This document shows, piece after piece, positions 2,296-6,617 of a stretch of DNA of 64,000 nucleotides. The notes under the pieces were generated by a model. The model saw only the letters and a list, made by a program, of their open reading frames with translations. It was not told where the DNA came from and did no database searches. How positions within the stretch are numbered: position 1 is the stretch's first letter; each line of letters opens with the position of its first letter. The translations under genes and the position numbers were made by a program. The stretch comes from Massilia sp. R2A-15 (GTDB lineage: Bacteria > Pseudomonadota > Gammaproteobacteria > Burkholderiales > Burkholderiaceae_D). The DNA lies in NCBI RefSeq assembly GCF_030704305.1, contig NZ_CP131935.1:4464001-4528000 (forward strand), written 5' to 3'.

Positions 2296-2342
2296 TGTGG
2301 ACGAACAATAAAGTCTGACACTAAACAATAGAGTTTGACACC
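2296..2342. mobile_element. Tn7-like transposon end at attTn7 (remnant)
   Basis: Starts with TGTGGACGAACA exactly 25 bp after the last base of the glmS stop codon, the known Tn7 insertion point. It continues with two 19-bp repeats at a 20-bp period: 2304-2322 (AACAATAAAGTCTGACACT) and 2324-2342 (AACAATAGAGTTTGACACC), 16 of 19 identical. From memory, the Tn7 right end starts TGTGGGCGGACAATAAAGTC and carries TnsB sites of this kind. Orientation (outer end toward glmS) matches Tn7R. The putative 5-bp target duplication would be GGCCC (2291-2295). No tnsA-E gene and no opposite end are visible. Confidence 0.85.
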
Positions 2343-2427: not shown

Positions 2428-3288
2428 TTAGATGTAGCGCCCTATGTCAGCTTTTTCCCCGGCACCTTTCACTACCGTACAGTAATAGCAATCACAAACG
2501 GTGTTTGCAGGTAGGCTCTTTGTCACGATGCCAGTTCGCCCTCGGTAGGATAATTTGCGATGCGCCGGCCGAAGGCCGGTGACCTGCATGATGAATTCAG
2601 TGACTGCGAGAGCGGCTACTACCCCGTTCAGAGAGACCACTGACGGTCCTGCTTGGTCGAGGTTGGCCTTATCCACACCGTAAATTCGCTCTCGATCCTC
2701 GCGCGCCGCTGGGCTTTCGAGGTCCCGGCGGGCCTCGTCCATGTCCAAGACGTCCAGGCAGACAAGGCAACCCGGTTGCTCGTCCATTAGCACAACGCGT
2801 CCGCCAAAATCTAGTGCGTCGCCTGGAGGAATGTCTGTGGCTAAGTCGAAGTAGCGAATGCGGTTAGTCAGCGCAAATTCCATCAAGACGAGACGACTAC
2901 CTTCATTGTCCACACAGCCGAATATGGTAGTGGCCTTACTGAGGCTTGAGAGGGCCTCATGGCTGCGCAGCGATGCCTTCACTGGAATGAACTGCACCGT
3001 CGGATCGATAGCCTTCACGCTGCGTTCTGCGATGTCTACCTTGTGCGTACCAGGTACCGCATCATCGTGTCGCGCTAGGATGTAGCGGTTGCGGTTAGTG
3101 TCGCTTAGGTCCTCGTCATCGATGCCAATGATGCCAGCAACACCGAGACAGGCCAGCTGCGGAATTAGATGTTCGCCAAGGCCACCGCAGCCCACAACCG
3201 CAACGAGCTCTCGTGCGATTAGTCGCTGCCCTTCTGCGCCGAAAAAACGTTCGTTCCTGTCGTGCTTACCCATAGCGTACGTCCCCAT
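2428..3288 (-). CDS. E1-like (ThiF/MoeB/UBA1 family) adenylyltransferase of a bacterial Ub-like system
   Basis: 286 residues. Rossmann nucleotide-binding motif GCGGLG at 33-38, acidic D57 at the end of the next strand, NRNRY at 65-69 (arginine finger), K83 and the CVDN motif at 125-128: the E1/ThiF core that adenylates the C-terminus of a ubiquitin-like protein. Two CxxC pairs (C174/C177 and C267/C270) form the expected zinc site. I see no cysteine in the crossover region (about 203-222) where E1s carry the thioester cysteine. An alternative start is Met6 (3273). Last gene of the leftward Ub-like operon; its start overlaps the JAMM gene by 23 bp (8 bp from Met6). Confidence 0.85.
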   Translation of the reverse strand: MGTYAMGKHDRNERFFGAEGQRLIARELVAVVGCGGLGEHLIPQLACLGVAGIIGIDDEDLSDTNRNRYILARHDDAVPGTHKVDIAERSVKAIDPTVQFIPVKASLRSHEALSSLSKATTIFGCVDNEGSRLVLMEFALTNRIRYFDLATDIPPGDALDFGGRVVLMDEQPGCLVCLDVLDMDEARRDLESPAAREDRERIYGVDKANLDQAGPSVVSLNGVVAALAVTEFIMQVTGLRPAHRKLSYRGRTGIVTKSLPANTVCDCYYCTVVKGAGEKADIGRYI

Positions 3289-3799
3289 AGATTTTACTGC
3301 TCAACAACGTCGTTTTCTGGATTTGTGAGCCGGAATAGATGTGACCGATTGGTATCGGAGTTTTGGAATCACCGAACCATGCGAGTCCATCGATACTGTT
3401 GTGGCCGACGACAAGGGCCGCATACGGCTTCCCTCGCAGTCGCCAGCGAATATGGGGCACAAATTCAACAAGGCCGAGGATATCTGCCGGGGAAAAGCAC
3501 GCAGGTTGCTTGCTTGGGTGGCAGTGCACTTCTAACAGGATCGCATTGCGCTCATGTGCAAGCTTGATGATGCGCGCGCGCGCCGCATCTGACAGCTCCA
3601 GGTAGTCGCTCGCCTGCGTGACATAATCGTCGCGCATAAGCGGAAGCCACTCCTCTACCACAAGTGAGTAGGGTAATTCTTGGGCGCAGGATTTACAGAG
3701 TAAGAAGCCGCCTTGTTCCATGTTGGAATTCCCAGGGAACAGGTGCGCCTGCATTGCAAGGAGCATCGCCGTCGGGATCGTTATCGTTGCGCTCGACAT
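3266..3799 (-). CDS. JAMM/MPN+ (Mov34/PAD-1, JAB) metallo-isopeptidase
   Basis: 177 residues with a complete JAMM zinc-protease signature: catalytic E28 (MEQGG), H92-x-H94 (EVHCHP), S103 and D106 (FSPAD). JAB proteases in bacterial Ub-like systems remove or trim the Ub-like modifier, like eukaryotic JAMM deubiquitinases and Cap3 of type II CBASS. It starts at an ATG whose T overlaps the stop of the upstream Ub/E2 gene (TAATG) and it overlaps the downstream E1 gene, so the three are translationally coupled. It could act as processing enzyme or as antagonist of conjugation; the sequence does not decide. Confidence 0.88.
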   Translation of the reverse strand: MSSATITIPTAMLLAMQAHLFPGNSNMEQGGFLLCKSCAQELPYSLVVEEWLPLMRDDYVTQASDYLELSDAARARIIKLAHERNAILLEVHCHPSKQPACFSPADILGLVEFVPHIRWRLRGKPYAALVVGHNSIDGLAWFGDSKTPIPIGHIYSGSQIQKTTLLSSKIYGDVRYG

Positions 3800-4539
3800 T
3801 ATTTGCCTTGCATGAAGCGAACATTGACCCCGATGGCGAAGTTGAGCAAGTTCGAACCGCTCGCCACAGTCTTAGCCGGCCGCCATTGACCATTGTCGGC
3901 CAACCAAGAGAACTGCCCCCACTTGCCCGGAAACGGTACGATTTCGCCGACCGGCTCGGAGTAGTTGTCCGGAATCTGGCCTTTAAAGCGGATGCCTTCC
4001 GGCACCATGAAAGCGTACGGCTCTGTGCCCGGATAGCTGGGCTGCACGCGCAGCACGACATCGGTAGATTGCCTGTCCCAGCCAATATCCGGCAGCGGCA
4101 CAGCGGGGAGGTGGAACCAGTTCCCTACGCGGGAGCTGCCTGGATAACGCGTTTGCAGGAGTGCCAGTTCTTCGTCCAGACGGGATTCGAACAGCGAATC
4201 GCCACGTTTCCACTGGATTTTCTTGGCAAAGCCGTGGCCAGGCTTCAGCTCAACCACCTCATCGGGTGCAAGCGTGCGCTCGTTATTGTCCTGGTCGACC
4301 TCGATTACGCCGGCCGAGGCATCCCAGCCGCCCAACACAATGATCTGTGCCACCGTAATGGTTGGGGCGTGCCACTCATGCATGCTGCCTTCAATGTCGA
4401 TATAGTAAGTTTTTCCCGGCTGCTCTTTGCCCTTTTCTTGAGCTACAATTCCATTGGTCATCATTGTTCCTTCAAGATTCAGATCGCTGCCTGCGTCAGC
4501 CATGTCGTTGGTCGTAGTTGCGAGTTTTTCGACACTCAT
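3799..4539 (-). CDS. fusion of a multiubiquitin-type Ub-like domain and an E2-like domain
   Basis: 246 residues from the ATG at 4539, chosen because AAGGA lies 9 nt upstream; an in-frame start 24 codons earlier (4611) has no such site. Residues about 43-112 (KTYYIDIEG, then ITVAQIIVLGG, then VELKPGHGF) fit the bacterial multiubiquitin beta-grasp domain. Residues about 130-246 (YPGS, LPDIGW, YPGTEPYAF, WGQFSW, WRPA) fit the prokaryotic E2 family E. No cysteine occurs anywhere in the 246-residue protein, so the E2 part cannot form a classical thioester. There is no GG tail after the Ub-like domain or at the C-terminus (FMQGK). First gene of the operon with JAMM and E1 genes; divergent from the sigma-like gene. 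Confidence 0.75.
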   Translation of the reverse strand: MSVEKLATTTNDMADAGSDLNLEGTMMTNGIVAQEKGKEQPGKTYYIDIEGSMHEWHAPTITVAQIIVLGGWDASAGVIEVDQDNNERTLAPDEVVELKPGHGFAKKIQWKRGDSLFESRLDEELALLQTRYPGSSRVGNWFHLPAVPLPDIGWDRQSTDVVLRVQPSYPGTEPYAFMVPEGIRFKGQIPDNYSEPVGEIVPFPGKWGQFSWLADNGQWRPAKTVASGSNLLNFAIGVNVRFMQGK

Positions 4540-4699
4540 GGTTATGGTCCTTATAAAGGGCACCGGGAAATCCGGTTGCATGAGCTGTATGGCTCCTGAG
4601 CAAGCCGCCACGGAAGCTGGCCGAAAAAAATATTTTCCTCAGGTATGAATCCGCAAGCTGAAGTTCGAGAGTCCTATGATGTGAAATGGAGATCCATTG
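4540..4699. promoter_or_regulatory. divergent promoter region of the Ub-like and sigma/ImmA operons
   Basis: 160 bp separate the chosen starts of the leftward Ub/E2 gene and the rightward sigma-like gene. The middle holds an AT-rich stretch (about 4624-4640, with AAAAAATATTTT). GGAG at 4688-4691 serves the ATG at 4700. I cannot assign -10/-35 boxes with confidence, nor a clear inverted-repeat operator. Confidence 0.4.
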
Positions 4700-5281
4700 A
4701 TGCCCCTATCCGAAACACCCGAAGACGACTTGACTCCCCAGGAGGTTAGTGCGCAGCTGCGCAGCCTCTCTGCGGCGGACTTCAAACGTGCCGGTTCTTT
4801 GGCGAAGATGTGCGCCGCTGGCATTCCTGGGATGGATGCCGGCGACCTTTTGCAAGAAGCGATGGTCAAGCTGCTGCTGGGCGAACGTGTTTGGCGCCGC
4901 GGGGTACACCCCTTGGTGACGCTGAAAATGGTAATGCTCAGCATCGCGTTCGACGCCCGAAAGAAGGCAAAAGGCGCGATCGATTGGCTCGCCATGATCG
5001 ATGACGGAACGAAGACCCGGGATACCTCCTGTCCGGGCGCGCTGGAGCCTGATAACCGTTCCCCTCAGGAAATTGTTGATGGTCGCAGCCAACTCAAATA
5101 TATCGAAAGCTTGGTGGCGGATGACGCCGATGCTAGTCTGGTTGTGACGGCTTGGGGTTTAGGGATGCGTGGCGAGGAGGCCGCGCGGGAAACCGGGCTC
5201 GAGATGAACCGATACGAGGCTGCACGCAAGCGCGTGACCAAAAAGCTTGAGCCTTTAGCGGCGCTAAGGAAAACCACATGA
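4700..5281 (+). CDS. sigma-70-like (ECF-type) RNA polymerase sigma factor
   Basis: 193 residues from ATG 4700 (GGAG 8 nt upstream). The N-terminal half resembles sigma region 2 (MDAGDLLQEAMVKLLLG, then HPLVTLKMVMLSIAFDARKK); the C-terminal half resembles region 4 (SLVADDADASLVVTAWGLGM, then GEEAARETGLEMNRYEAARKR), the helix-turn-helix that reads a -35 element. Sigma factors of this class direct RNA polymerase to a dedicated promoter set. It starts a three-gene operon; its stop overlaps the next start (ATGA at 5278-5281). It is divergent from the Ub-like operon, so that operon is an obvious candidate target (inference). It could also be a non-promoter-binding HTH protein of sigma origin. Confidence 0.7.
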   Translation: MPLSETPEDDLTPQEVSAQLRSLSAADFKRAGSLAKMCAAGIPGMDAGDLLQEAMVKLLLGERVWRRGVHPLVTLKMVMLSIAFDARKKAKGAIDWLAMIDDGTKTRDTSCPGALEPDNRSPQEIVDGRSQLKYIESLVADDADASLVVTAWGLGMRGEEAARETGLEMNRYEAARKRVTKKLEPLAALRKTT

Positions 5282-5688
5282 GCTTGCCTATCGAAAAACT
5301 GGAGCCGTTCGACGTGCTTCTTAACACTTATCTCGACGAATTAATGGCAACGCCGGACGACGAAATCCTGGATGGTGATGATCCGGCTGCGGTTAGGGCT
5401 GCGGGTATGAAAATGCTCGAAGCAGCGACGGCTAAAGCGGGCAAGCTAAGGCTTGCAGCGGCTCGCGATCGTATGGTGACTCATAGAAAAAGTCCAAAAG
5501 AAGGTCTTCTTTTCTCGGGATCAATTGAAGAGGCAAGAGCATTCCTACGCACGGCAAGTAACGATCCGAGATTTACGTTAGCCGCTCGCGGACTTGATGA
5601 GATGTCTGATGATGATATTCGCCGCCTCTATCAACGATATATTCAGTTAACCAGAGAAAAAACTCAGCCTGATGGGGAAAGAGAATGA
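5278..5688 (+). CDS. hypothetical protein between sigma factor and ImmA protease
   Basis: 136 residues, acidic N-terminal half (PDDEILDGDDPAA), helical, no signal peptide or membrane segment, no cysteine. I do not recognise the family. It overlaps its upstream neighbour (sigma factor) and downstream neighbour (ImmA/IrrE peptidase) by ATGA on both sides, so the three are made together. By analogy with repressor/ImmA pairs, it could be the anti-sigma or repressor partner that the peptidase cleaves; this is inference from position only. Confidence 0.75.
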   Translation: MSLPIEKLEPFDVLLNTYLDELMATPDDEILDGDDPAAVRAAGMKMLEAATAKAGKLRLAAARDRMVTHRKSPKEGLLFSGSIEEARAFLRTASNDPRFTLAARGLDEMSDDDIRRLYQRYIQLTREKTQPDGERE

Positions 5689-6482
5689 CCCCTGGTCAGC
5701 GCGCAGAGTCTCTTATCGCAAGTTTTGGAATCTCTTCTCCAAGCGAGATTGACATTGAAGCGATTGCTTTCGCCTCTGGTGTTGAAATTCAATACGATAG
5801 TCTTAAGGGTTGCGATGCAACATTAGTTGGGGTGGATGACCGGGCGATCGCAACCGTGCGACCCTCAAGCGTACGCGGGCGTGAACGCTTCTCCATTGGC
5901 CATGAGCTGGGCCATTGGGAGATGCACCGTGGACGATCCTTTCGTTGCAGGACCGACAGTCCTGACGAGAACCTTGCATCCAACCGTGTGGAGGAGAAAG
6001 AGGCTGATAGCTTCGCAGCGCACCTCTTGATGCCGGCAACGCTGTTCAATCCACGTGTCAACGCACTCATCAAGCCAGGATTTAGCGCCCTTGACGAAGT
6101 GGCACGTGAATTCGAGACGAGTTTGCTGGCAACCTCAGTGCGGTTGACAGACGTTAATCAGCTGCCTGTAGCTCTGGCTTGCTACTCGGCTTCTGGCCGG
6201 CGTTGGTATAAGTTTTCTAGCGATATTCCGAGGCGCTGGCGGCTCGAAAGTAAGCTCGATGAAGAAAGCTTTGCATATGACCTGCTTAAGTTAGGGAAAA
6301 TGCCAGGCGGACTTCGTAAGCAGCCTGCCGACGTATGGTTCGAAAACTCTAATGCGGATGATTTCGAGGTCTATGAAGATTGCTTTCCGGGAAAAGATGG
6401 TGAGGTACTCGTACTCCTCTATTTGGAGGCTGACATGATGGAAGCTGAATTTGAAAGGAATGCTAGGGGTCGCAGGTTTTAA
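5685..6482 (+). CDS. ImmA/IrrE family metallo-endopeptidase
   Basis: 265 residues. Gluzincin motif HELGH at 73-77 with third zinc ligand E106 in EKEADSFAAHLLMP, the hallmark of ImmA/IrrE (COG2856) peptidases. Known members cut a partner repressor to derepress genes (ImmA of ICEBs1, IrrE/PprI with DdrO, CapP with CapH in CBASS). The N-terminal 60 residues resemble the usual helical lead-in; residues 170-265 are an extra C-terminal region I cannot name. Third gene of the sigma/unknown/ImmA operon, ATGA-coupled to the 136-residue gene. Confidence 0.88.
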   Translation: MTPGQRAESLIASFGISSPSEIDIEAIAFASGVEIQYDSLKGCDATLVGVDDRAIATVRPSSVRGRERFSIGHELGHWEMHRGRSFRCRTDSPDENLASNRVEEKEADSFAAHLLMPATLFNPRVNALIKPGFSALDEVAREFETSLLATSVRLTDVNQLPVALACYSASGRRWYKFSSDIPRRWRLESKLDEESFAYDLLKLGKMPGGLRKQPADVWFENSNADDFEVYEDCFPGKDGEVLVLLYLEADMMEAEFERNARGRRF

Positions 6483-6617
6483 GCGATCTGCCTGCTCTGC
6501 CTACATGATCCTTATATTAGAAGAACCGAACCACAGTGGACGAACACTGGACGAAAGAAGAGCCACGCTGAGTGGACCTCCGGCTCATAAATCATTTTCT
6601 ATAACTCATCGAGAATA

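Follow-up and report, generated by a model that had tools for sequence, protein, structure and literature searches.

A compact Bub-type ubiquitin-like operon with a Ubl-E2 fusion, missing catalytic cysteines and a divergent sigma-like/CapH-like/CapP cassette

A compact relative of the Bub pathway

Within the window, the 64,000-nucleotide stretch of Massilia sp. R2A-15 DNA analyzed here, three overlapping genes at 2428-4539 on the minus strand encode a 246-residue fusion of a ubiquitin-like (Ubl) domain to an E2-like domain, a JAMM protease and a ThiF/E1 protein (Table 1), an arrangement that the original prediction had described correctly. Judged by their sequences, the three genes are a compact relative of the Citrobacter Bub (bacterial ubiquitination-like) pathway, a placement that rests on predicted structure and sequence profiles. 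We consider it probable that they form a compact Bub-type conjugation operon serving as a mobile stress/immunity cassette, in which JAMM would cut the fusion, the Ubl would be transferred without cysteine and the opposing sigma-like/CapH-like/CapP genes would exercise control, any antiphage role being putative. This reading builds on domain and fold identities, conservation of the operon, Arg-Gly ends, missing cysteines and the recurrence of the regulators. Bub pathways are newly characterized; with one Ubl, one E2, one JAMM and one E1 in 2.1 kb, the compact form is a small system for reconstitution.

Table 1. Features of the operon, the opposing cassette and the adjacent Tn7-like end
Feature	Position	Strand	Evidence
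Tn7-like left-end remnant: TGTGG, then direct repeats at 2305 and 2325	2296..2340	+	24 bp past the glmS stop
E1-like adenylyltransferase, ThiF fold, 286 aa, BubC-like	2428..3288	-	Pfam ThiF 2.4e-27; best PDB match Citrobacter BubCD 2.1e-12
JAMM/JAB metalloprotease, 177 aa, counterpart, in a gene of its own, of the JAMM half of BubCD	3266..3799	-	Prok-JAB 0.0016, below cut-off
Ubl-E2 fusion protein, 246 aa	3799..4539	-	predicted structure, profiles, alignment A1
UBC-fold E2-like domain without cysteine, BubB-like, residues 114-246	3802..4200	-	
Beta-grasp Ubl domain, BubA-like, residues 45-113	4201..4407	-	
Arg112-Gly113, invariant, Ubl/E2 junction; predicted JAMM cut after Gly113	4201..4206	-	alignment A1, ends of separate Ubls
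Divergent promoter region between ubiquitin-like operon and regulator cassette	4540..4699	.	sequence; near-identical in G748
ECF-sigma-like protein, 193 aa	4700..5281	+	weak: family profile vs CnrH 0.0077, SigH 0.14; Pfam Sigma70_r2 0.14, below cut-off
CapH-like protein, 136 aa, candidate anti-sigma and CapP substrate	5278..5688	+	PADLOC capH 0.002, profile 59-97 of 103; no Pfam HTH up to E 1
CapP, IrrE-type metalloprotease, 265 aa	5685..6482	+	PADLOC capP 7.5e-61; Peptidase_M78 5.8e-13; HELGH at residue 73

When family profiles were compared with the PDB, BubCD ranked first for the E1 (2.1e-12) and also for the JAMM protease, but in the latter case at 0.053 over its N-terminal half, which is not significant. 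The Ubl-E2 profile matched the multi-ubiquitin protein 9d59 (0.0028) and BubB (0.0033 and 0.0035), with BubB the best match of the UBC-fold E2-like part; it also matched a pectinesterase at 0.0055, so the PDB scores of this family are weak when taken alone. A single predicted structure of the 246-residue protein, the check proposed with the original prediction, contains both the beta-grasp and the UBC fold, with a pTM of 0.64 that leaves the domain arrangement undecided. A conventional Bub protein at locus L011, in a genome (G581) of the same bacterial family, scores 5.1e-49 against BubA and 6.8e-29 against BubB. The E1, JAMM and Ubl-E2 profile matches, together with the matches of this protein to BubA and BubB, place the operon as a Bub relative, and the Bub features present in the window are a multi-ubiquitin-type Ubl, a cysteine-less UBC-fold E2, an E1 without the catalytic cysteine and a JAMM protease in the operon. 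The E1 gene is the last of the operon.

The available text of Iyer et al. 2006 (PMC1779556) describes, in its row 6e, a polyUbl, a cysteine-less protein with an E2/RWD-like fold, a JAB protease and an E1; some species have polyUbl and inactive E2 joined in one protein, and one species has a solo Ubl. To judge from that text, the operon class, including a Ubl fused to an inactive E2, was already in print in 2006 and is not new (PMC1779556). What is new are the fused and split relatives with Arg-Gly ends, the absence of cysteine, and the opposing three-gene sigma-like/CapH-like/CapP cassette.

Missing catalytic cysteines and an intact JAMM active site

The Ubl-E2 protein of the window contains zero cysteines, and the E2 part is cysteine-free in 14 of 18 fused relatives. 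Among the 24 E2 ORFs of split loci (that of L053 being incomplete), cysteine occurs in 12, at positions that differ except among close Bradyrhizobium relatives. The catalytic residue C187 of Escherichia coli MoeB aligns with L210 of the window E1, and none of the 45 E1 rows (42 compact plus 3 outgroup) has cysteine there; in the alignment of the window E1 with BubCD, BubCD is seen to lack it as well. The cysteines that are kept have another pattern: each of four zinc-type CxxC positions is cysteine in 43/45 E1 rows, the window E1 carries the two pairs C174/C177 and C267/C270, and a separate 28-row alignment (25 of the best 120 of 1210 relatives plus the window, the Tenderia protein and G399) has C125, C174, C177, C267 and C270 as its invariant E1 cysteines.

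The lack of cysteine in the Ubl-E2 protein, with 0/45 at the MoeB position, makes a thioester cascade or relay unlikely on sequence grounds. Bub E1s are not known to carry the catalytic cysteine, and according to Ye et al. the Bub Ubl reportedly goes from the adenylate directly to a substrate serine by an ester bond. The original prediction had credited the operon with every class of a ubiquitin-like pathway; since both E2 and E1 are without a catalytic cysteine and no E3 was seen, that statement does not hold for a canonical pathway. The JAMM protease, for its part, keeps E28, H92, H94, S103 and D106 in 42/42 sequences, 35 of them in a tight HxHP-x(5-9)-S-x2-D pattern and the seven others at the aligned residues.

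An invariant Arg-Gly junction in fused and split relatives

Arg112 and Gly113 are invariant in all 41 rows of alignment A1, which excludes a 135-residue fragment (P0041). Scanning the genome contigs with the single Ubl-E2 protein returned zero relatives, and scanning with alignment A1 returned 39 loci, with Ubl and E2 in one gene in 14 and the Ubl separate in 25, one of which (L071) had no identified E2. The separate Ubls end exactly at RG in 21 of 25 cases and carry tails of one to three residues (QS, A, AK, RHE) in the other four. RG is kept at the junction in 18/18 fused rows (the 14 loci plus the window, G748, G399 and the Tenderia plasmid), the following residue being variable, and in three-Ubl forms such as that of the Tenderia plasmid it occurs at the last Ubl only. 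The solved BubA chain likewise terminates in Gly (PKDVNNG), and the fused conventional Bub protein of L011 has PKDVDNG there.

On this comparison, the Ubl very probably has its functional C-terminus at Gly113. Separate Ubls that end in RG, matching R112-G113, are most simply accommodated if the fusion is a precursor cut by JAMM after Gly113; to expose this residue the fusion would very probably need a cut there, for which the adjoining JAMM is the obvious candidate. In the predicted structure, helix 114-131 begins directly after Gly113, so a cut at this point would need local unfolding. On the 45-row E1 tree the fused/split state changes seven times by parsimony, at least three of them on well-supported branches, and fusion is therefore readily tolerated. 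A chance or misread fusion was ruled out: the reading frame runs without interruption through both domains, and the fused state is seen in 18 rows. Comparing fused with split forms allows a precise prediction of where the mature modifier ends, and of a JAMM processing step that is readily testable.

The E2 C-terminus is also conserved, as x-G-x, with G245 near-invariant in A1 and Gly as the penultimate residue in 35 of 38 loci. We set aside the idea of a second C-terminal handle because the same bases can double as the JAMM ribosome-binding site; given that a strict GGAG/GAGG/AGGA motif occurs in 29/40 E2-JAMM junctions and that the window junction has just AAGG, it is possible that the conserved end has a role of its own.

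A divergent sigma-like/CapH-like/CapP cassette

Divergent from the ubiquitin-like operon, at 4700-6482, lie three overlapping genes for a sigma-like protein, a CapH-like protein and CapP. The sigma-like family profile matches CnrH in region 4 (0.0077) and SigH in region 2 (0.14), both weakly. In the available text of a 2026 study of Bub (PMC13373217), CapP is activated by ssDNA and then cleaves the repressor CapH, and 219 of 544 Bub operons adjoin CapW or CapH+CapP while 59 adjoin CapK+CapS. The gene content of the cassette suggests a sigma/anti-sigma/protease form of this known DNA-damage switch. A Pfam HTH was found in 0/8 CapH-like proteins of the sigma-type cassettes scanned. The PADLOC capH profile (103 positions) is covered at 12-101 by L093, 24-100 by L095 and 29-101 by L096, and in its C-terminal part (59-97) by the window protein; because the first three match most of the profile, the CapH-like protein is possibly a diverged CapH repressor that binds DNA. 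Among the papers listed in literature searches, none pointed to a sigma/CapH/CapP cassette.

The sigma-like profile has matches in 18 of 385 genomes of the family of the window, and in the seven of these regions that were opened CapP adjoins in five, four of which also have a CapH-like gene; the sigma-like gene of L097 was itself identified by the family profile. Neither CapP nor a CapH-like gene lies beside the sigma-like gene in the two other regions (L092 and L098). The sigma-type cassette faces other ubiquitin-like operons in two of the seven: a Bub operon with polyUbl-E2 and JAMM-E1 in G452, and a Ubl-like ORF with a DUF6791-ThiF protein and a DUF6527 protein in G494. In three others of the seven, a sigma-like/CapP cassette is faced by an unrelated protein of 312-314 residues without a Pfam match at L093 9254-10198, L094 2344-3288 and L095 6957-7895, beyond which L095 encodes a 1947-residue NACHT protein; the 312-314-residue protein is a candidate uncharacterized defence gene.

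Upstream of compact operons, a CapP-like gene lies within 2.5 kb in 18 of 35 loci when sought with an HMM trained on other sequences, and in 26/35 with a broader HMM partly trained on the counted loci. In the remaining nine the broader HMM, too, detected nothing CapP-like upstream, the flank being short in L038 only, and downstream the count is 0/35, with the full 2.5 kb present in 31. These counts leave out L035, L049 and L054, which have little upstream sequence, and L071, in which JAMM and E1 were not seen. The accompanying genes vary. Two compact Bub loci, L039 and L050, have a protein with Sigma70_r2 above cut-off (1.6e-9 and 7.6e-6) and an IrrE-type protease nearby; PADLOC gave no capH match for the middle gene of either L034 or L039; G399 pairs an HTH-like protein (HTH_3 0.00014, marginally below cut-off) with a CapP-like protein (6e-13); and G581 has a CapK-resembling protein with a weak GHKL-ATPase match (0.00016, below cut-off). 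One sigma family across Bub loci was unsupported: an HMM of five proteins (window, L093, L095, L096, L097), whose matches to its own building rows are circular, had no hit among the ORFs of the 35 compact loci with the threshold as loose as E 10, and the hhalign probability was 10.8%.

Distribution and the Tn7-like island

The 39 loci come mostly from metagenome-assembled genomes and span Pseudomonadota, Planctomycetota, Chloroflexota, Acidobacteriota, Myxococcota, Thermodesulfobacteriota, Bacillota and Actinomycetota. In the class of the window, A1 matches occur in 3 of 369 sampled genomes (one being its own and one weak) and Multi_ubiq matches in 14/369, 13 of them above cut-off; in its family, A1 matches occur in 4 of 392 genomes, again with one its own and one weak. 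G748, from a different genus, has all six genes, with protein identities of 94% (Ubl-E2), 96% (JAMM), 99% (E1), 94% (sigma-like), 90% (CapH-like) and 98% (CapP).

The original prediction placed the operon in a Tn7-type island. A Tn7-like end, whose TGTGG and repeats we take to resemble those of Tn7, lies just past glmS, while the same repeat pattern gave no right end in the window. The first 18 bases of this end have a single exact copy in the genome, and a TnsD search of the genome gave no match, although its control matched nowhere either. An end of this kind is also present in G748, flanked on its outer side by TnsD/TniQ genes; the two TnsD/TniQ proteins, at L009 2431-6143 just outside the Tn7-like end by the G748 cassette copy, suggest neighbouring Tn7-like elements. 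At L093 4938-9089 (G670) a sigma-like/CapH-like/CapP cassette directly follows a glmS-like gene (called from N-terminal sequence), a hint of further Tn7-type spread. At L011 2334-9315, in a related genome, a glmS-like gene is likewise followed by a conventional Bub operon with a CapK-like gene; one of its proteins combines three Ubl matches with the E2, and another is a JAMM-E1 fusion.

In the window, at 6536, downstream of capP, GTGGACGAACA repeats 2297-2307 of the Tn7-like end and is possibly another end remnant. The minus-strand ORF at 7484-8056 matches FMN_red (3.8e-14, residues 67-142 against profile positions 75-150) and encodes the C-terminal portion of an NADPH-dependent FMN reductase, presumably ArsH-like, that looks N-terminally truncated. 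A short plus-strand ORF at 9161-9493 matches the C-terminal end only of anti-phage dCTP deaminase (NCBIfam 2e-15, PADLOC 4.2e-23) and is, by sequence, what remains of a further defence gene in the island. As the original prediction stated, a CD-NTase is absent from the island ORFs scanned. Protection against phage is not demonstrated for Bub in the available text of that study (PMC13373217), and the accessible part of a review says that phages appear to be the main target of systems of this type (PMC12687455).

Proposed mechanism and alternatives

In the mechanism we favour, the Ubl-E2 protein would be made as a precursor and cut by JAMM after R112-G113, the products being a BubB-like E2 and a Ubl whose C-terminal Gly is free. 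The E1 would adenylate this Gly, and a substrate bound to the E1-E2 complex would receive the Ubl directly from the adenylate, without a catalytic cysteine; JAMM could take the Ubl off again. The divergent cassette would govern expression: ssDNA from DNA damage would switch on CapP, which would cut the CapH-like protein, freeing the sigma-like protein to have the operon transcribed. We are more hesitant about the full proposal that a cytoplasmic sigma/anti-sigma switch, opened by ssDNA-triggered CapP, replaces the CapH repressor and turns on a cysteine-free ubiquitin-like pathway with a JAMM-released Arg-Gly modifier from a Ubl-E2 precursor; we hold it to be rather doubtful, the more so as the CapH profile is matched over most of its length by relatives of the CapH-like protein. 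If it is true, Bub operons would freely swap CapW, CapH+CapP, CapK+CapS and sigma-type controllers. The divergent cassette may be the activating counterpart of a DNA-damage switch described so far as a repressor system.

The fusion might instead stay uncut, with the Ubl and the E2-like domain acting in cis as a scaffold or sensor subunit, for example by oligomerizing as multi-ubiquitin proteins do, and with JAMM directed at another target. Such a role would fit the helix that comes straight after Gly113 in the model, the stability of the fused state within clades such as the Tenderia-like group (four rows), and the confinement of RG to the last Ubl of three-Ubl forms. We nevertheless judge it unlikely, as separate Ubls terminate at RG or within one to three residues of it, as expected of a Gly exposed by trimming, RG is constant in fusions while the residue after it varies, and the JAMM active-site residues are kept throughout.

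Protein conjugation is also preferred over a sulfur-carrier or small-molecule system of the ThiS/MoaD kind, which the similarity of the E1 to the ThiF and MoeB families and the Gly terminus of the Ubl might suggest. The nearest solved relative is BubCD and not MoeB or ThiF, the MoeB catalytic cysteine is missing in 45/45, a UBC-fold partner with BubB as its best match is present, and among the 25 NCBIfam matches listed all are far below cut-offs; we reject this system as very improbable. We give least credence, and very little, to the operon being a decayed remnant in a degrading island: the FMN_red and dCTP deaminase pieces and the finding of one transposon end only point that way, but all six genes are ORFs of the expected length, their catalytic residues are intact, and another genus keeps all six at 90-99% protein identity.

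Comparison with known systems

The operon shares with Citrobacter BubA/BubB/BubCD (PDB 9d59, 9d5a, 9ea4, 9ea5, 9ea8, 9eae and 9eav) a multi-ubiquitin-type Ubl, a UBC-fold E2, an E1 and a JAMM protease. It differs in having one Ubl, fused to the E2, where Bub has several, and in encoding JAMM and E1 as separate genes; three-Ubl BubA reportedly forms Ca2+-mediated filaments. The window Ubl ends in WKRG and BubA in PKDVNNG, and the window E1 has two CxxC pairs where the conventional JAMM-E1 proteins of L011 and L097 have no CxxC at all and BubCD lacks the first pair. A further likeness is that Bub operons often adjoin DNA-damage regulators, according to the available text (PMC13373217). Class 6e, as far as the accessible part of its description extends (PMC1779556), resembles the operon in its polyUbl, inactive and sometimes fused E2-like domain, JAB and E1, with one solo-Ubl species, but there JAB and E1 mostly form one protein and a metal-binding protein Y may accompany them, whereas here JAMM and E1 are separate genes and the operon has no later one.

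The cassette resembles CapH+CapP regulators in its CapP (7.5e-61), its C-terminal CapH match and its divergent orientation, and departs from them in that its CapH-like protein has no Pfam HTH and is preceded by an extra, sigma-like gene. Bil and CBASS Cap2/Cap3 share the logic of E1, E2-like protein and JAMM; however, the PADLOC E1-E2 models match the window E1 only (best 3.3e-9), its E2 has no cysteine, and the island ORFs scanned include no CD-NTase, setting this compact Bub-type operon apart from both.
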